The notes under the pieces: generated by a model | Seen by the model: only the letters and a program-made list of their open reading frames with translations | The model's database searches: none | What the model was told of the DNA's origin: nothing | NCBI GenBank assembly: GCA_027025555.1 | Contig: JALVQN010000138.1 | Location: forward strand, 1 to 32,289 | Reading direction: 5' to 3' | From: Desulfobacterales bacterium | GTDB taxonomy: Bacteria > Desulfobacterota > Desulfobacteria > Desulfobacterales > UBA2156 | Length of the DNA: 32,289 bases | Shown: in pieces, positions 5,202 through 15,248 of the stretch | Layout of the letters: each line of letters starts with the position of its first letter | Numbering within the stretch: the first letter of the stretch is position 1 | Translations under genes and position numbers: made by a program

Positions 5202-5861
5202 TTAGAAATCCTTCGACTTGCGAATGACGCCGAACTCCGATCCCATATAGGCGCGCGTAAAGGGTGAATAGATCATGTGGCTCAACCGGGTGAAGGGGAT
5301 GGCCACCAGCATCACCTCGCCCGCCAAAACGTGCAGCACCATGACCATGGGATACCCGAACCACTGGTGATAAGCCAAAAACCCGGTGACGAACGGGGCG
5401 GCAACGATGGCCAAGATGAAGTAATCGGAGGGAAACGTCACAAACTGAACTTCGGGCTGAGTCAATCGCCGGAGCAGGAAAAAGACACAGCCGGCAATCA
5501 CGATCAGCGTCATCACATCCGCCACCCCATCGGGCAATGTCCACCAGCTGATGTCCCAGGATTCATCCCACAGGGTCACGTGAGCCAGCAAAAAGATGGG
5601 GGACACGAAGAGGCAGATATGAAAGGCAAAGGTGACCACGGTCAAAACCGGTTTCCTCCGCCAGTTATAGGTGGCAAAGGGCGTCATCCAGTGCACGATG
5701 GATCGCAGGCTGTACTTCAAACTCATGTATGTAAAAATAAAGGGTTCCTTCTTTTTTACTTCCACGAGCATGGCGATCATCCGATAGAGGCTCCCCCCGA
5801 CAAAGAGGATAAACGCCACCCAGGCCAGCGGGCCGCTTACAAATTGATAGAGATCGTGCAT
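5202..5861 (-). CDS. tmcC: TmcC, cytochrome b-type membrane subunit of the Tmc complex
   Basis: A 219-residue integral membrane protein with about five to six hydrophobic helices and several in-membrane His residues (for example HWMTPF, FHICLF, YHQWFG, LHVLAGE), like the NarI/DsrM family that carries b hemes. In the Tmc complex it links periplasmic TmcA with cytoplasmic TmcB across the membrane. The start is placed at ATG 5861, because AAGGGGG lies 5 bases upstream. A GTG two codons earlier is possible but overlaps that ribosome site. The gene begins 10 bases after the tmcD stop and ends 73 bases before tmcB. Confidence 0.9.
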   Translation of the reverse strand: MHDLYQFVSGPLAWVAFILFVGGSLYRMIAMLVEVKKKEPFIFTYMSLKYSLRSIVHWMTPFATYNWRRKPVLTVVTFAFHICLFVSPIFLLAHVTLWDESWDISWWTLPDGVADVMTLIVIAGCVFFLLRRLTQPEVQFVTFPSDYFILAIVAAPFVTGFLAYHQWFGYPMVMVLHVLAGEVMLVAIPFTRLSHMIYSPFTRAYMGSEFGVIRKSKDF

Positions 5862-5871
5862 GGTCACCCCC

Positions 5872-7134
5872 TTAACCTGTAATTTCCGTTACCGGCAGGA
5901 TACGCCGAAGGTATTGGCCATTTTCCACGGTCCTGAGCAGAACCTTTTCACTGTCCGGGCTGAAAACCGGATCCCAGGCGGCCTCGCACTCTTGAGGCCA
6001 GACGCGGTCGTTGATGACGACGGTGTATTTCCCCTGTTTTTCCACCTTTACCCCCACATGGCGATTGTTCGGGCTGATGACCGGTTTCCAGGCCATATGG
6101 AAGGTGTTGCTCCAGGCGGCGCCGTTCACCACCACTTTCCATGTTTGGTCTTCTTTGGCCAGCGCCGCAATGGTGGATCCATCCGGAGAAATCACCAAAT
6201 CCGAAACCAGGGTGCTGAACGTGACGCTCCAGGGCCGACCGTTGACAGCCACGGTCCATCGGCCGTAGCGTGGGGAGACAATGGCCGCCAACGTTTCCCC
6301 GTCGGCGCTGAAGGTTTGATGCCAAGCCTGCAGAAATCGTCCCTCCCATAAAATTTCGCCGTCCTGGGCCAGGGTCCACTTGCCCCCTGTTCGAACCGGG
6401 GCGATGACGCTTCCGGTGACAGGATGAAAAACAGGTTCCCAAACGCACTGGAAGACCTTGTCCCAGGGCCGACCGTCAACGGCGATGGAATAGTCATAGA
6501 GGTTGTGCCGCATCTCGGCCGCCAATTTCGTTCCGTCTGCACTGAAGGCCATGTTCCAGGCATTCACGAATTTATTCTCCCACGCCTGTCCGTCCACCGC
6601 CACGGTGAAACAGCCTTCCTGGAATTTGTGGATTTCCCCTTCGCCAAAATCCTCCACCTGGACCACGGCGGCGGTTTTGGAGCCGTCCGGGCTCATGGCA
6701 AAATAGGTCATGTTCTGGAAGGTCGTCTCCCACGGCTTCCCGTTGACCACCATGCAGTACATCCCGTCATTCTGGGCGGCCACGGCAATGTTTTTGCCGT
6801 CCGGACTGAACAGGGTGTTCCAGACATACGCGAACTTGTTCTCCCAGGGCACCCCGTCCACGGCCACGGTCCACTCGGCCATGTCGGATACCAGGGCGGT
6901 GAGCCGTCCATCCGGCGCCCACCTCAAATACCAGATCTTTTCGAACGGATTTTCCCAGGTCTCTCCGTTCACGCAGACGTTGAATTCCTCTTCATCCTGG
7001 TTCACGACGGCCGCCACGTGCTCTCCGTCGGGGCTGGCATACGGTTCCTCAACCCAGTTGAATTTGTCCTTCCATGGGTCCATGGGAACCGTTTTCTCCC
7101 TTGTCTCCCAGTCCCAGTTGCTTTGATCAACCAT
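5872..7134 (-). CDS. tmcD: TmcD, beta-propeller-like subunit of the Tmc complex
   Basis: A 420-residue soluble protein without signal peptide, built from about eight to nine repeats of roughly 42-48 residues. Each repeat contains a W-[ED/S]-x-x-F element (for example GETWENPF, GVPWENKF, GKPWETTF, GRPWDKVF, GAAWSNTF), then a FSPDG/MSPDG-type turn and an Ala-rich strand. This is the WD40-like pattern of TmcD, whose role in the complex is unknown and may be structural. The start is set at the ATG behind AAGGAGGG; the longer reading frame upstream has no ribosome site. It is the first gene transcribed, so the order here is D-C-B-A. Confidence 0.88.
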   Translation of the reverse strand: MVDQSNWDWETREKTVPMDPWKDKFNWVEEPYASPDGEHVAAVVNQDEEEFNVCVNGETWENPFEKIWYLRWAPDGRLTALVSDMAEWTVAVDGVPWENKFAYVWNTLFSPDGKNIAVAAQNDGMYCMVVNGKPWETTFQNMTYFAMSPDGSKTAAVVQVEDFGEGEIHKFQEGCFTVAVDGQAWENKFVNAWNMAFSADGTKLAAEMRHNLYDYSIAVDGRPWDKVFQCVWEPVFHPVTGSVIAPVRTGGKWTLAQDGEILWEGRFLQAWHQTFSADGETLAAIVSPRYGRWTVAVNGRPWSVTFSTLVSDLVISPDGSTIAALAKEDQTWKVVVNGAAWSNTFHMAWKPVISPNNRHVGVKVEKQGKYTVVINDRVWPQECEAAWDPVFSPDSEKVLLRTVENGQYLRRILPVTEITG

Positions 7135-7638
7135 ACTCCCTCCTTGATGGTGAAAGCTTAAATGCAATCGGTCCGGCCCCGCCTTACCCCCCATCCCGAA
7201 TGGCCATATGCAGCGATCTGGCGCGGGGTCCGGGACTGTCGGGCGTCACGCCTCCCCTCCGACATCCTTTAATCCGGTTTTTTCCTGCCCCTTTTGGAGA
7301 AAATCATGAGCGGAATTAACAAAGGGGGCGTTGTATGTCAAGGAGAAGCTTCTTGAAGGCGGTGTTTCCATGAAGGGCACCTGCCCTTGCAAAGAGGCGG
7401 GGCCATGGGTTTAATACAACCTGCAAATTTGCCGATACATAACGGACGAAAGCAAAAAGAGGCGGTATGAATCTGAAGGTCCCGTGCGCCTGAAAAGGCC
7501 AAAGGAGCCGCCCGGGACAACTGGATGCCGGATTTTGGCTTGTCAGCCGATGGCGACCATGCTATGGGAAATTCGCAAGAGGCGTTTTATGCCCTGGAAG
7601 AAGTCCAGTCCGCGTTTGAAAAAGCAGGAGGGAAACCG
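7135..7638. other. Divergent intergenic region between tmcD and the 7.6 kb gene
   Basis: About 500 bases hold no convincing gene. Towards tmcD it contains a promoter candidate (7313-7341) and, in the resulting leader of about 170 bases, a hairpin with outer arms TGTCG/CGACA (7237-7264) around an inner GGCG/CGCC. The half nearer the plus-strand gene shows purine-rich stretches and an in-frame extension of that gene without a ribosome site. No riboswitch family could be matched. Confidence 0.5.
7313..7341 (-). promoter_or_regulatory. Possible promoter of the tmcDCBA operon
   Basis: Minus strand: a perfect TTGACA (7341-7336), followed by GTTAAT at 15 bases (four of six matches) or TAATTC at 17 bases. 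It lies about 180 bases upstream of the tmcD ATG, the first gene of the operon. The -35 is strong and the -10 ambiguous. Confidence 0.45.
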
Positions 7639-8133
7639 ATGAGCGACACCCAGAAAAGCACCGTCATTGCACTGACGATCCTTTTGGCCATGTTTCTTCA
7701 AGTCATGCTGGTCTTTGCCGACCAGGCGGATGCGCCCGGCCGCGCAGCGGTCCGGTTTGTCAAGGCCTATTATGCCTTGGATCCGTCCATGAGGACCCTC
7801 CTTTGCCAAGCCGCCCAAAAAGATGAAGAGGCGGACAGGGTGGACGAGTTCCTGTCAAGAGTCGCCGACCAGGCGCGTGCCCGGGGTTTTGACCCGGCAT
7901 ACATGCGCAGCAAAGTCCTTCATGCGGAAAGCCGCACCGTCTTTTCCGATGCAAACACCGCCACCGTCACGGTCACCGGCGTGCGGAAGCGCATGATCCA
8001 CCCTTTTTTCACCTGGGTGGCACAAATTTTTTTCTTGGGTGAAACGTATCCCTTCGAAGAAACGCTTCAGCTCGTTAAAGAAGACGGCCGATGGAAAGTC
8101 TGCCAAACGGAACTTCCCCCGCCCGCCGTTTAA
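7639..8133 (+). CDS. Membrane-anchored or secreted protein of unknown function
   Basis: A 164-residue protein. The start is the ATG behind AGGAGG (7627-7632); the frame is open further upstream but without signals. Residues 8-27 (VIALTILLAMFLQVMLVFA) form a signal peptide or single membrane anchor. The rest is a small alpha/beta domain with a helix bundle (residues 35-95) and a strand-rich end (TVTVTGVRKRM... ETLQLVKEDGRWKVCQTELP). The ending resembles NTF2-like or DUF4878-type domains, in which the last strands read as 'lv kedG.WKv'. It faces outward from the cytoplasm and is followed closely by the HD-domain gene. The function is not recognised. Confidence 0.7.
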   Translation: MSDTQKSTVIALTILLAMFLQVMLVFADQADAPGRAAVRFVKAYYALDPSMRTLLCQAAQKDEEADRVDEFLSRVADQARARGFDPAYMRSKVLHAESRTVFSDANTATVTVTGVRKRMIHPFFTWVAQIFFLGETYPFEETLQLVKEDGRWKVCQTELPPPAV

Positions 8134-8223
8134 CCTGTTTTGACCCGGCCTGAAACACCCGGGAAAGCCTGTCCGCGCGCGGCTGAGCCGGGGCGCTTTC
8201 CCGACACCGTCTCCCTGACGCCA

Positions 8224-8982
8224 ATGGATCCGGTTTATATTCAGATTCGGAGCCGCGCCCGAGAGATCGTTGCCCGCCACCCCGAGCCGGACTTCTACCG
8301 CAACTGTCGCCACGCCAACAGATTGTCGAAAAATCTCTTTGACACCGATCCCGTGGTTTTCCGGCTGCTGGATCTTCTGGCCCGGCACCTGGAAGACGAT
8401 TTCGGGCACGGCCTGGATCACGCCCTCAAGGTCTCCCTCGATGCCGGGGCCCTGATGCTCATCGAGGGCGGCCGTGCCGGATACGCAGCGCCCGAGATCC
8501 ATCTCAAGACGCGGCTGGTGCACTGTGCAGGCCTGCTCCACGACATCAAGCGAAAACAGCACAACCATGCTGAAAAAGGGGCCCTCTACGCCCGAGAAGC
8601 CTTAAAGGCCTTTCCCTTTTCCGAAAAAGAAAGACAACAGATTTGCGGCGCCATCCGCCGTCATGAAGCCTTCAAAAAAAGCCCCCCCATCCGGGATTCC
8701 GAAGGGATCCTGGTGGCCGACTGCCTCTACGACGGGGACAAGTTCCGGTGGGGGCCGGACAACTTCTCCCACACCATCTGGGACATGGTTTCCTTTTTCA
8801 AGACGCCCCTTTCCCGGTTTATGGACTATTATCCCAAAGGCATGGAAGGGCTCCGAAAGATCCGGGACACCTTCCGCACCCCCACCGGAAAGCGCTATGG
8901 CCCCCAGTTCATCGATATCGGAATTTCCATCGGAAACGAGCTTTACGAGGTGATCCGATCCGAATTCGGGGAGTTCTTGTAA
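8224..8982 (+). CDS. HD-domain (metal-dependent phosphohydrolase family) protein
   Basis: A 252-residue cytoplasmic protein with the HD signature. His66 (GHGLDHALKV) is followed by the His106-Asp107 pair (LLHDIKRKQHNH), a later His147 (IRRHEAF) and Asp166 (LVADCLYDGDKF). This is the H...HD...D set that binds one or two metal ions in nucleotide and phosphoester hydrolases. The C-terminal 80 residues (TIWDMVSFFKTPLSRF and beyond) do not match a domain I know. The start is uncertain: ATG 8224 has no clear ribosome site, and a TTG at 8140 would add 28 residues. The substrate is unknown. It lies 90 bases after the preceding gene on the same strand. Confidence 0.75.
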   Translation: MDPVYIQIRSRAREIVARHPEPDFYRNCRHANRLSKNLFDTDPVVFRLLDLLARHLEDDFGHGLDHALKVSLDAGALMLIEGGRAGYAAPEIHLKTRLVHCAGLLHDIKRKQHNHAEKGALYAREALKAFPFSEKERQQICGAIRRHEAFKKSPPIRDSEGILVADCLYDGDKFRWGPDNFSHTIWDMVSFFKTPLSRFMDYYPKGMEGLRKIRDTFRTPTGKRYGPQFIDIGISIGNELYEVIRSEFGEFL

Positions 8983-11613: not shown

Positions 11614-11997
11614 CTATTGCCGGGGCCCCCATGGGGTATTGTTTTCCAGGGGATCGTACACCTTCCATCTCCCATGGATGAAAATTTTGGGACCAAGCCG
11701 CACTTCGTCCCGGCCGCACCTTAAAAGGCGATCCGAGGCCATCATCCATCCGATGAAAAAACCGTATTTGTCCACCGCAGCCTTGGCGTAGGCCGAGCAC
11801 GAGGGATACATGGGACATTCTCCGCCCCGAAGGGCGGCCATGTGGTTCAACGGTCCCTCGTAAAGGCGGATCATGGCGGAAAGGGGATCCGTCGGGGTGC
11901 TTTGGAACCGGGTGAAAGAAGAACACCCCGCGGCCGACAGCCCCAACAGGCAAAACAGAATCCCCAACAGGCTTAGGCGATGCCTCCTTCTTGTCAT
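11614..11997 (-). CDS. Lipoprotein with YidD-type domain
   Basis: A 127-residue protein. The N-terminus is a lipoprotein signal with lipobox LSAAGC (Cys25). Residues 58-95 match the YidD family (membrane protein insertion efficiency factor): ECPMYPSCSAYAKAAVDKYG, then a helix ending in RLLRCG. Classic YidD is a cytoplasmic-face peripheral protein of about 70-85 residues that assists YidC; here the domain is carried to the outside of the inner membrane by a lipid anchor. A C-terminal extension (KIFIHGRWKVYDPLEN) follows. Its ATG overlaps the znuB stop as ATGA, so it is probably translated with the importer. The function is inferred from family only and may differ from YidD. Confidence 0.8.
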   Translation of the reverse strand: MTRRRHRLSLLGILFCLLGLSAAGCSSFTRFQSTPTDPLSAMIRLYEGPLNHMAALRGGECPMYPSCSAYAKAAVDKYGFFIGWMMASDRLLRCGRDEVRLGPKIFIHGRWKVYDPLENNTPWGPRQ

Positions 11998-12818
11998 CCG
12001 GCGGCTTTTCTCCGGGCCCTTAAAAACTTGTTCAACAGGATGGATATGAAAAAAGCGGCGCCGGCAGTCAGGATGATGGCGGCGCCGGAGGTGAGGTTGA
12101 AGGCAAAGGAGAGGCAGAGCCCCCCCGTGGTGAGCAAGGCGCTCAAGACCACTGCCAGGACCATCATGGAACGCAGGGATCTGGCGTAGCCTTCGGCCAT
12201 ATAAGGGGGAATCGTCATCAAGGCCATGACCAGGATCAATCCCACCACGCGGATGATGAAAACCACGCACACGGCCACCATGCAGACCAGCAGGAAGTAC
12301 AGCCCCCTCACCGGGACCCCCCGGAGCCTGGCGAACTCTTCGTCGAAGGCCATGGCAGAAAGATCATGGTAAAAGTAGGTGACCACCAGGACCACGAAAA
12401 CCCCGGCCCCGGAAAGGACGAAAAGGTCCAAGCGGCCGACGGTCAGGATGCTGCCGAACAGATAACTCATCAGATCCACGTGGTATCCCGGCGTCAAGTC
12501 GATGAGGACGATGCCCAGGGCCATTCCCACCGCCCAGATGACACCGACCACCGTGTCGGAGCGATGCCTGGCGTTCAACGTGACGGCCGCCATGACCAGG
12601 GCTGCTGCCAAAGAAAATCCCAATGTTCCCGCAAGGAAGGGAATCCCCAAAAAAACGGACACCCCGATGCCGCCGTAGGCGGCATGGGCAATGCCCCCGG
12701 AAAGAAACACGAGGCGGTTGATCACCACGAGGGTGCCGATGACGCCGCACAGGAGGCTGGCCAACAAGCCCGCCATGAAGGCATGCCGGATAAAATCGAT
12801 TTGAAGCGCGTCCAGCAT
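11994..12818 (-). CDS. znuB: ZnuB-type ABC permease for zinc or manganese
   Basis: A 274-residue inner-membrane permease of the ABC-3 family with about eight hydrophobic helices. It begins MLDALQIDFIRHAFMAGLLA and carries the typical GTLVVINRLVFLSGGIAHA segment, which contacts the ATPase and forms the early part of the channel. It pairs with the ATPase and binding protein encoded just upstream. The gene starts 3 bases after the znuC stop, with GAGG and AAAGG-like sequence before the ATG. The family includes ZnuB, TroC and MntB, so the metal (Zn or Mn) is not settled by sequence. Confidence 0.9.
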   Translation of the reverse strand: MLDALQIDFIRHAFMAGLLASLLCGVIGTLVVINRLVFLSGGIAHAAYGGIGVSVFLGIPFLAGTLGFSLAAALVMAAVTLNARHRSDTVVGVIWAVGMALGIVLIDLTPGYHVDLMSYLFGSILTVGRLDLFVLSGAGVFVVLVVTYFYHDLSAMAFDEEFARLRGVPVRGLYFLLVCMVAVCVVFIIRVVGLILVMALMTIPPYMAEGYARSLRSMMVLAVVLSALLTTGGLCLSFAFNLTSGAAIILTAGAAFFISILLNKFLRARRKAAG

Positions 12819-12821
12819 CCT

Positions 12822-13577
12822 TTAATCCTCATGGGGCTTCAGGACCCGATGGGGTTGACCGTGGGCAATCAAATCCACCGGGCATTCGAAGATGTCCATC
12901 ATTTCCTCGGTGATCTCGGCTTCGTCATGGTAGTGGAGCCGCTCATTGACACAGGCCACCGCATGGCTGTGGCGGCTCACCACCATGAGGTCGTGGCTCA
13001 CCAAGAGGATCGTCATACGGGCGTTGAGCGCTTTCAGCAGCTCGTACAACGCCCCCTGACCTTTGGCATCAATGTTGGCGGCCGGTTCATCCAGAAAAAG
13101 CATCTCGGGTTCGGCCGCCAGGGCCCGGGCGATTAGAAGGCGCTGGTGTTGTCCGCCGGAAAGGGCGCTCATTTTCTTGTCCCGCAAGGCCCATACCCCC
13201 ATGCGCTCCATGGCTTTCCGGGCCGCCATTTGGTCTTGCCTTTCGTATCGATGCCGTCCCCTCCCCGGCACCCGACGTCCCATCAGCACCACCTCGAAGG
13301 CTGTGACGGGGATTCCCCTGTTGAGATGAAGGCTCTGGGGCACGTATCCGATGCGGTGGGCCACCTCCTGAGGCGCCTTGCCGAAAACCAAAATACTGCC
13401 CCGGTCCGGCTTCATGAGGCCCAGCATCAGCTTCAACAGGGTGGTCTTTCCGCCCCCGTTGGGGCCGATGAGCGCCAGGAATTCCCCTTCCTTCACCGTG
13501 AGGTTCACTTCCCGAAGGACCGGGTCGCCGTCGTAAGAAAACCAAAGATCCCGGATCTGGATGACTTCCCGAGCCAT
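12822..13577 (-). CDS. znuC: ZnuC-type ABC transporter ATPase
   Basis: A 251-residue ATPase. Walker A is GPNGGGKTT (residues 38-46), the Q-loop lies near YVPQSLHLNRG, the signature is LSGGQHQR (139-146), Walker B is MLFLDEP (159-165), and the switch His is in LLVSHDLMVV. It powers metal import through ZnuB. A His-containing C-terminal stretch (NERLHYHDEAEI) is common in ZnuC-type proteins. It starts 6 bases after the znuA stop, with no clear ribosome site of its own, so it is probably translated by coupling. Confidence 0.93.
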   Translation of the reverse strand: MAREVIQIRDLWFSYDGDPVLREVNLTVKEGEFLALIGPNGGGKTTLLKLMLGLMKPDRGSILVFGKAPQEVAHRIGYVPQSLHLNRGIPVTAFEVVLMGRRVPGRGRHRYERQDQMAARKAMERMGVWALRDKKMSALSGGQHQRLLIARALAAEPEMLFLDEPAANIDAKGQGALYELLKALNARMTILLVSHDLMVVSRHSHAVACVNERLHYHDEAEITEEMMDIFECPVDLIAHGQPHRVLKPHED

Positions 13578-13583
13578 TGAAGA

Positions 13584-14549
13584 CTACCGCAGGGCCTCCC
13601 TGAACTGCCTGGCCGTCCGAAGCAGGTTTTCCGCCCACCGGGGGGAAAGGGGATCCACATAAACCACTTTACCGTTGATGGCCCTTGCAATCATCTGGGC
13701 GCTTTTGGTGGGAAACTGCTTCTGGACAAAAAGGACCCTGACGTGGTGGGTTCTGGCCCAGTGGATCAATCGCTGAAGATGCGCCATCTTGACGGGCTTG
13801 CCTTCCAGTTCCACGGGAATCTGCCTCAGGCCATAGGTGTCGGCAAAGTAGCCCCAGGCGGGATGAAAGACCATGAAAGCCCTTTGGGAGCCGAGTTGCG
13901 AGAAAATCGATTTCAAGCGGTCATGAAGGGCGTCGATTTTTCTTTCCAGTTTTTGATAATTGGCCTCGTACCCTTTCCGGAAGGCGGGATCCACGGCCAC
14001 CAAGGCATCTTTGATGTTTCGGGCATGGATCTTGGCCAGGGGAGGGGAAAGCCAGGTATGGGGATCTTTCCCGGTTGTTTGACCAGGCTCGGGGCGGCCT
14101 TCTGACAACGCCTTGGACCGGTCTTTTGCAATGGATGCGTCGCCAAGGGAAAAGCGCGTTGCCATGTTTCTTTTTTCGATGCCGGCATCGCTGTGGACGA
14201 TGGTCATGTCGGGATTGGCCGATGCGATCCGCTCCAACCAGACGTTTTCAAAGGGCACGCCCACGGCAAAATAGACTTTCGCCTTGCGCAATTGTGCCAT
14301 CTGGCGGGGTTTGGGTTCGTAGGTGGCCGGATTCGCCCCCGGCAGCACCATGGGAAATACCCGGAGCCGGGAGCCGCCGATCTTTTCCACAAAATAGCGT
14401 TGGGGCAATATGCTCACATAAACCAACAGCTTCCCGTCGCCCCTGTCCGCCCGGCACACCCCCCGGGACCAGGGCAACACCAAAAGGACGGCCATGAGGA
14501 CCCCCGGCGCGATTCGGAAAAGACTTGGCATGTGACGCTTTTTTTCCAC
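13584..14549 (-). CDS. znuA: ZnuA-like periplasmic metal-binding protein
   Basis: A 321-residue binding protein of the cluster A-I family. The start is GTG with AAGGAGG 6 bases upstream. A signal peptide spans about residues 1-34 (LMAVLLVLPWSRGVCRA). Expected metal ligands are seen at His164 (KDPHTWLSP), His229 (MVFHPAWGYFAD) and Asp299 (VYVDPLSP). The first ligand, a His in the usual DPHxYEP motif, is replaced: the sequence is GANPATYEPKP with Ala75 at that place. The His-rich loop common in zinc-specific ZnuA is also absent; the loop (135-160) is only charged. It is first in the znuA-znuC-znuB-yidD unit. Zinc is the likely cargo, manganese possible. Confidence 0.85.
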   Translation of the reverse strand: MEKKRHMPSLFRIAPGVLMAVLLVLPWSRGVCRADRGDGKLLVYVSILPQRYFVEKIGGSRLRVFPMVLPGANPATYEPKPRQMAQLRKAKVYFAVGVPFENVWLERIASANPDMTIVHSDAGIEKRNMATRFSLGDASIAKDRSKALSEGRPEPGQTTGKDPHTWLSPPLAKIHARNIKDALVAVDPAFRKGYEANYQKLERKIDALHDRLKSIFSQLGSQRAFMVFHPAWGYFADTYGLRQIPVELEGKPVKMAHLQRLIHWARTHHVRVLFVQKQFPTKSAQMIARAINGKVVYVDPLSPRWAENLLRTARQFREALR

Positions 14550-14591: not shown

Positions 14592-15248
14592 TCAGGAATC
14601 AAGGGCACTCGGGGTCGCCCTGAGGGCATGCAGGACGCCGTGACACCGGCAGGCCGTGCCCAACAGAAACATCCCTTCCATCCGTTCGATGCGGCGTTTC
14701 ACTTCAAACAACGCATCCGGGGCATAGCCTCCCACACCGGGGCCGAGCTGATGACTCCTGACGACGATGACGGGCCCATGGGACCCGCCGCACGCCTCGA
14801 GGCGCCTGTACAGGGGCGCCTTCCTGGGACGGCCGGTGACCGTACACCGATCCGCCGGTTCCGGGCAATCCTCGGGACAAAGAAAATCGGCGAAACTCAC
14901 ATAAAGGGCGCCCCCCTTGCCGGGCACGGGATTCGGAAGCCCCGCCGCAAGATCCTCCGGAATGGAGAGCGTCTCCAGTCGCACTCCGGTGACCGTTTCC
15001 AATATCCATTCATAGGCCACGTGAATCGGGGCTGCAGGCACAATCCAGTCCGGGAGGGGCCCGGAGCTCAGACTGTCTGTCATAAATGCAATGCCCTCGC
15101 CGATGACGGTGTTGACCCGGCCCTGCCAGGGCGCCAAGCGCTCCGAATCCGGGTCCACCACGGTGAGCACCGCATTCGGCCGCCTCCGTAAAAGATGGGC
15201 AACGGCTCGATTTCCGAACGTGCCGCAACCGATAATCCAGATATTCAA
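14592..15248 (-). CDS. Rossmann-fold protein with a cysteine cluster, unknown function
   Basis: A 218-residue protein from a TTG start, with AAGGGG 8 bases upstream; no ATG or GTG stands near. Residues 3-35 form a nucleotide-binding beta-alpha-beta unit (IWIIGCGTFGNRAV, then VLTVVDPDSERL), like TrkA-N or dehydrogenase folds. The second half is unusual: Cys124, Cys128 and Cys135 (CPEDCPEPADRC), Cys153 (EACGGSHG) and a C-terminal Cys200-Arg-Cys202-His203. This could bind a metal or an iron-sulfur cluster. It lies 100 bases downstream of the membrane protein gene on the same strand and about 40 bases before znuA. I do not recognise a family for the whole protein. Confidence 0.65.
   Translation of the reverse strand: MNIWIIGCGTFGNRAVAHLLRRRPNAVLTVVDPDSERLAPWQGRVNTVIGEGIAFMTDSLSSGPLPDWIVPAAPIHVAYEWILETVTGVRLETLSIPEDLAAGLPNPVPGKGGALYVSFADFLCPEDCPEPADRCTVTGRPRKAPLYRRLEACGGSHGPVIVVRSHQLGPGVGGYAPDALFEVKRRIERMEGMFLLGTACRCHGVLHALRATPSALDS

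Follow-up and report, generated by a model that had tools for sequence, protein, structure and literature searches.

A predicted YidD lipoprotein encoded beside ZnuABC-type importer genes in sulfate reducers and their relatives

The final gene of a metal-importer operon, found in a 32,289 nt stretch of DNA from a Desulfobacterales bacterium (hereafter, the window), raises the question of what a YidD domain would do when fitted with a lipoprotein signal. Canonical YidD helps membrane building from inside the cell, and its partner side, with YidC and the nascent chains, is cytoplasmic. The protein is widespread in bacteria and, to our knowledge, has no assigned biochemical activity; the key paper on YidD is reportedly that of Yu et al. 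from 2011. YidD is also treated in PMC8082313, PMC3573977, and PMC6822775.

The gene (positions 11614–11997, minus strand) has an ATG start and encodes a product of 127 aa, here designated lipo-YidD, which reads MTRRRHRLSLLGILFCLLGLSAAGC-SSF... and then GGECPMYPSCSAY...DRLLRCGRDE...YDPLENN; its N-terminal stretch is MTRRRHRLSLLGILFCLLGLSAAGCSSF..., with the YidD domain after it. Residues 40–95 match PF01809 with 49.2 bits, above the curated cut-off of 27 (E 4.6e-13), and the equivalog model TIGR00278 scores 51.9 bits for a cut-off of 40, placing the product within the family. A lipobox typical of bacterial lipoproteins, LSAAGC, occupies residues 20–25, and the domain contains the core cysteines Cys61, Cys67, and Cys94. 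Cys25 would be lipidated, and the domain would then face the periplasm, anchored in the inner or the outer membrane. The preliminary description had read this gene as a YidD domain with a lipobox signal, i.e., as a lipoprotein, and the two family models, the motif and the clade-wide presence of the lipobox all agree with it.

The same genome has a second YidD (G000:C139:4000-4191), with 101.3 bits versus 49.6 for lipo-YidD, lying directly downstream of two ORFs that we recognized by eye as those for ribosomal protein L34 and the RNase P protein. These neighbors correspond to the classical order rpmH-rnpA-yidD-yidC, as presented in PMC10941002, indicating that lipo-YidD is not the canonical copy. 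Likewise, in a tree of 125 domains the 19 canonical YidDs formed one long branch (length 2.6, support 100/100) apart from lipo-YidD; two of the 21 canonical sequences (L155 and L157) had been lost to a motif filter before the tree was built. Lipo-YidD has in common with canonical YidD (PF01809, TIGR00278; membrane protein insertion efficiency factor) a domain above the curated cut-offs, the DP motif and the three core cysteines, whose equivalents also occur in the canonical copy of this genome, but it differs by an export signal with lipobox, which would take it away from the cytoplasmic face, and by its position outside the classical order, in a znu-type operon. That the equivalog model TIGR00278 labels exported YidDs as membrane insertion factors should be taken as a warning.

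All of 58 sampled relatives had a YidD match, and a copy with an export signal was picked in 40; by eye, we divided these into 17 of the same type as lipo-YidD (branch A), characterized by a lipobox followed by a GPLNHLSAVRxGECPMYPSCS-like stretch, and 23 that belong to other exported types. Scanning the GTDB species genomes gave 337 confirmed relatives; the best 80 of these, a selection that favors query-like sequences, comprised 62 branch A and 18 other exported YidDs. The labels A and B were assigned by a motif rule, except that L149, whose motif is of type B, was manually reassigned from A to B. Loci from the 58 genomes and from the named scan overlap (e.g., L034 is L073), so their counts must not be summed. 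The relatives are mostly MAGs of Desulfobacterales, Desulfobacteraceae and “Deltaproteobacteria”, with isolates such as Desulfonema magnum, Desulfobacter latus, and Desulfospira joergensenii. In the tree, branch A was a single clade of 67 rows (support 100/98) that included the window gene as well as L069 and L072, two divergent members with long branches, while the other exported types formed no resolved groups. The open-licence literature that we searched yielded no paper describing an exported YidD or a metal link of YidD. We regard branch A as an exported second version of YidD in sulfate reducers and their relatives, the family being known and the variant new.

The strict lipobox pattern was present in 57 of the 62 branch A members among the best 80 of 337; by eye, four of the remaining five have a near-lipobox, and L109 lacks a signal stretch in its ORF, which is possibly cut or frameshifted. 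The preservation of the lipobox and of Cys61 and Cys94 across branch A excludes that the ORF and its signal arose by chance. Export and lipidation are predicted from the sequence, and it could be argued that the N-terminus is no lipoprotein signal and that the protein is simply another YidD of the usual cytoplasmic kind. However, the 57 strict matches all place a lipobox-type Cys after a hydrophobic stretch, and the other exported branches mostly have Sec-type signals where branch A has its lipobox, which would be needless for a cytoplasmic protein; we thus consider this reading very improbable. In Escherichia coli, lipoproteins with a residue other than Asp at position +2 are sorted to the outer membrane. 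Asp was never found at position +2 after the lipobox Cys in the 60 branch A members scored (two of the 62 were not scored), which suggests that lipo-YidD resides in the outer membrane. Such a location would set it apart from ZnuB, which counts against a joint role, yet it would leave lipo-YidD able to meet soluble ZnuA.

The operon in the window has the order znuA-znuC-znuB-yidD, all on the minus strand. It includes genes for a ZnuA-type metal-binding protein (13584–14549, GTG start as listed; PF01297, E 1.1e-59), a ZnuC-type ABC ATPase (12822–13577; PF00005, E 5.9e-33) and a ZnuB-type ABC-3 permease (11994–12818; PF00950, E 5.1e-69), thus containing the families of a cluster A-I importer. As had been described, the stop codon of the permease gene overlaps the start of lipo-YidD as ATGA. 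None of the three subunits reached the NCBIfam cut-offs for ZnuA/B/C or Azt, the top matches (score/cut-off) being AztA (170.9/220), AztB (155/280), MntC (108/400), and AztC (105.2/350); the name znu is therefore used here for homology only and does not decide between zinc and manganese or iron. Just before znuA, and on the same strand, there is a gene of uncertain start (14592–15233) for a Cys-containing protein without Pfam or NCBIfam family, which tblastn found ahead of znuA in L034, L035, and L037, three relatives within the same GTDB family, and which is a possible member of the operon.

The ZnuA-type protein from the window (13584–14549) has Ala in place of the usual first metal-ligand His (NPATYEP). 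Ala is found at this position in the window protein and, over an alignment of ZnuAs from linked loci, in 16 of 29 rows (28 loci and a row for the window that duplicates L033; L044 and L112 are one place). We considered whether linked ZnuAs have a damaged metal site that the lipoprotein completes; this was rejected because Ala is also common there irrespective of linkage, in 13 of 30 ZnuAs from the 58-genome sample taken regardless of linkage, at least one of which (L227) is linked.

A recurring neighborhood of lipobox-YidD genes and metal transporters in relatives, which the preliminary description had proposed to look for, was indeed found. Among the best 80 of the 337 relatives, znuA or znuB lies within 5 kb in 37 of 62 branch A loci and in none of the 18 other exported YidDs (Fisher 1.8e-6, relatedness ignored), and in 32 of the 62 znuB is upstream and on the same strand. 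The 58-genome sample gave the same picture, with znuA or znuB beside 10 of 17 branch A genes, in 5 of 12 families, versus 0 of 23 others; an eleventh branch A locus, L047, has an isolated znuC only. A genome contains about one strong ABC-3 match, so that adjacency by chance is expected for less than 1% of genes. The gap from the znuB stop to the yidD start was between −30 and +30 bp in 21 of 30 measured cases, and −4 in eight; 30 of the 32 loci with znuB upstream gave a gap, flanking genes were called by a simple longest-ORF rule, and the value of −444 for L113 stems from a broken znuB. Lipo-YidD may follow znuB, as in the window, or be convergent with it (L045, L092); it follows znuB and a Fur-family gene in L044/L112 and L123 (FUR profile for L044, tblastn for L123), is separated from a divergent znuABC by a Fur-family gene in L076 (FUR profile match), and precedes znuA in L069 and L072. 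Placing the znu label on the tree requires 11 changes, at least five of them forced by well-supported branches, indicating that the linkage was gained or lost several times.

An ancestral landing by znu, with the order then inherited without functional meaning, would also leave many linked cases within one clade, as observed; moreover, the label changes are only 11, on a tree with unresolved forks, and further downstream genes, for methylmalonyl-CoA mutase and thiolase, are also common to eight loci. Apart from such genes beyond the znu operon, we saw no other recurrent neighbors of branch A. Against a passive passenger speak the overlapping genes, the changes of order and orientation under which proximity persists, and an independent repeat in another lineage (family f115, see below), so that we judge it improbable. 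Against a coupling to the importer, 25 of the 62 branch A loci among the best 80 of 337 have no znuA or znuB in the flanking DNA, although several end at contig ends, and genome G007 has a branch A gene with no ZnuA match and a weak ABC-3 match, indicating that lipo-YidD can persist without the importer. The branch A gene of Desulfonema magnum (L082), too, has no znu neighbor within 6 kb of DNA.

Several individual loci deserve mention. In L113, the ORF with lipo-YidD (about 5800–6330) opens with the apparent N-terminus of a broken znuB, with FeoB upstream, apparently a znu operon that has decayed while the lipoprotein gene was retained. Another metal link is seen in L034, L037, L040, and L041, all of the same GTDB family, where FeoB and an iron repressor of the DtxR type (matched by Pfam in L034) are encoded downstream of the lipo-YidD operon. 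Upstream of the convergent znuC-znuB of L045 and L092, and on their strand, there is an ORF (7268–8080 and 7666–8445, respectively) that we take to be a CbiK-type cobaltochelatase from its sequence as read by eye, a hint at cobalt as a possible metal at these two loci.

The other exported YidDs keep different company. Within the best 80 of 337, gspC/D/E were nearby in 14 of 18 of them and in none of the 62 branch A loci (Fisher 2.0e-12, relatedness ignored), and a TPR gene in 15 of 18 versus 0 of 62; in the 58-genome sample, 17 of 23 non-A exported YidDs come directly after gspC-gspD-gspE, often before a TPR gene (Pfam). The loci with type II secretion system (T2SS) genes in the 5 kb around the exported YidD are L049–L055, L057, L059, L060, L063–L068, and L070, and the adjoining YidD is a possible, unrecorded T2SS accessory. 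These YidDs (branches B and C, for which we found no published name) have a CPMYPSCSxY-type core and a DPVxxNDFWW-type end in common with branch A, but mostly carry Sec-type signals and gspC/D/E and/or TPR neighbors, and branch C has lost the third Cys. Of 198 genomes drawn evenly across the phylum, 39 had an exported-type match at E ≤ 1e-12, with G000 and a few members of its order counted in; 30 loci were listed from this draw, of which 24 were not of branch A, and a TPR gene adjoined 20 of these 24. Non-A exported YidDs are thus mostly found by T2SS and/or TPR genes, which shows that the domain is exported in settings other than metal import as well, and suggests a more general envelope factor, with branch A as the branch associated with metal operons.

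In one locus from the phylum draw, L196, znuA and znuC come after the exported YidD; an exported YidD of this type is present in 11 of the 12 genomes of the order to which L196 belongs. In 9 of the 11 genomes of family f115 (L233–L243), znuA comes directly after the exported YidD and shares its strand, and the TPR neighbor is kept in 2 of 11, apparently reflecting a move between operons within one family. These znuA-linked proteins are without the third Cys, and a few have a His-rich linker, which most lack. Together with branch A, f115 indicates that exported YidD joined a znu-type operon at least twice.

The same neighborhoods bear on an alternative in which lipo-YidD is an envelope assembly factor under metal control, with an insertion or assembly role from the periplasmic side that is needed when metal is scarce, and no handling of metal. 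The conserved core of the YidD domain is kept, and the gspC/D/E genes next to so many exported YidDs in both samples belong to envelope machinery without evident metal link, as do the TPR genes adjoining most non-A copies outside the order of the window organism among the 30 loci listed. Conversely, two separate lineages reached the same kind of metal operon, and the canonical partners, YidC and nascent chains, are on the cytoplasmic side. On balance, we find an assembly factor of this kind rather unlikely.

We favor a functional coupling of lipo-YidD to metal import, which appears probable to us: the coupling to a metal importer proposed in the preliminary description holds at the level of gene order, through the znu linkage in branch A and its independent repeat in f115, and lipo-YidD would be co-expressed with the importer. 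A home-made palindrome search of 23 regions upstream of znuA gave no convincing shared Zur/Fur operator, a point against this coupling: scores somewhat exceeded those of five block-shuffled controls, yet the candidate sites were rich in AT, scattered and in part resembled start codons.

The way in which lipo-YidD would serve the importer is more tentative. In the mechanism that we consider the likeliest, the cluster of Cys61, Cys67, and Cys94 would bind the imported metal together with the branch-specific His52, and lipo-YidD would pass it to ZnuA, in a role like that of AztD. Cys61 and Cys94 are present in all 62 branch A members among the best 80 of 337, whereas Cys67 is present in 56 and replaced by Asp in six, the znu-linked L090 among them; His52 occurs in 56 of 58 aligned branch A rows, compared with 7 of 16 for the other exported type (alignment A3, with 73 of the 80 loci plus P0001). 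An AlphaFold2 model of lipo-YidD, a small and mostly helical protein, is confident for residues 61–120 (block pLDDT 86–96) and weak before them (overall 75.6, pTM 0.56). From the limits of the predicted helices 67–78 and 80–95, these should form a hairpin with Cys67 near Cys94. Such proximity would be compatible with a metal site, but no less with a disulfide or with a structural site retained from canonical YidD. The Asp variants and the f115 proteins without third Cys count against a site based on the triad, and the triad is not specific, since canonical YidD has the same three cysteines. The Cys-rich domain may receive or sense metal, as the preliminary description suggested, although part of the evidence speaks against it, and metal binding as the mechanism seems to us conceivable but somewhat doubtful.

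Searches for relatives among known structures yielded no metallochaperone: a PDB sequence search gave 0 matches for P0001 and for A1, and no Foldseek match reached E ≤ 0.001. AztD is the periplasmic zinc metallochaperone of AztABCD operons (PMC6689063). Like lipo-YidD, it is a small accessory protein of the envelope whose gene accompanies those of a metal ABC importer of cluster A-I. The two have no sequence relation, and AztD is the larger protein, a beta-propeller, in contrast to the small, mostly helical lipo-YidD.

Altogether, lipo-YidD most likely assists metal uptake as an accessory factor in the envelope and possibly binds metal; the complete explanation, an exported, lipid-anchored YidD paralogue that is an accessory part of a ZnuABC-type uptake operon, has in our estimate about an even chance of being right. 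A wider and quite speculative proposal, to which we attach little probability, is that exported YidDs are a periplasmic metal-handling family, in which the lipid-anchored ones would feed ZnuA-type proteins and those linked to T2SS and TPR genes would put metal into proteins that complete their folding in the periplasm ahead of export by the T2SS. If this were true, metal binding through thiols and His would be a biochemical activity for the YidD domain, one that might matter for canonical YidD too. A natural YidD on the opposite side of the membrane, linked repeatedly and partly independently to a metal importer, offers a direct handle on the function of the domain, and the znu-linked lipo-YidD suggests an unstudied helper of metal uptake.
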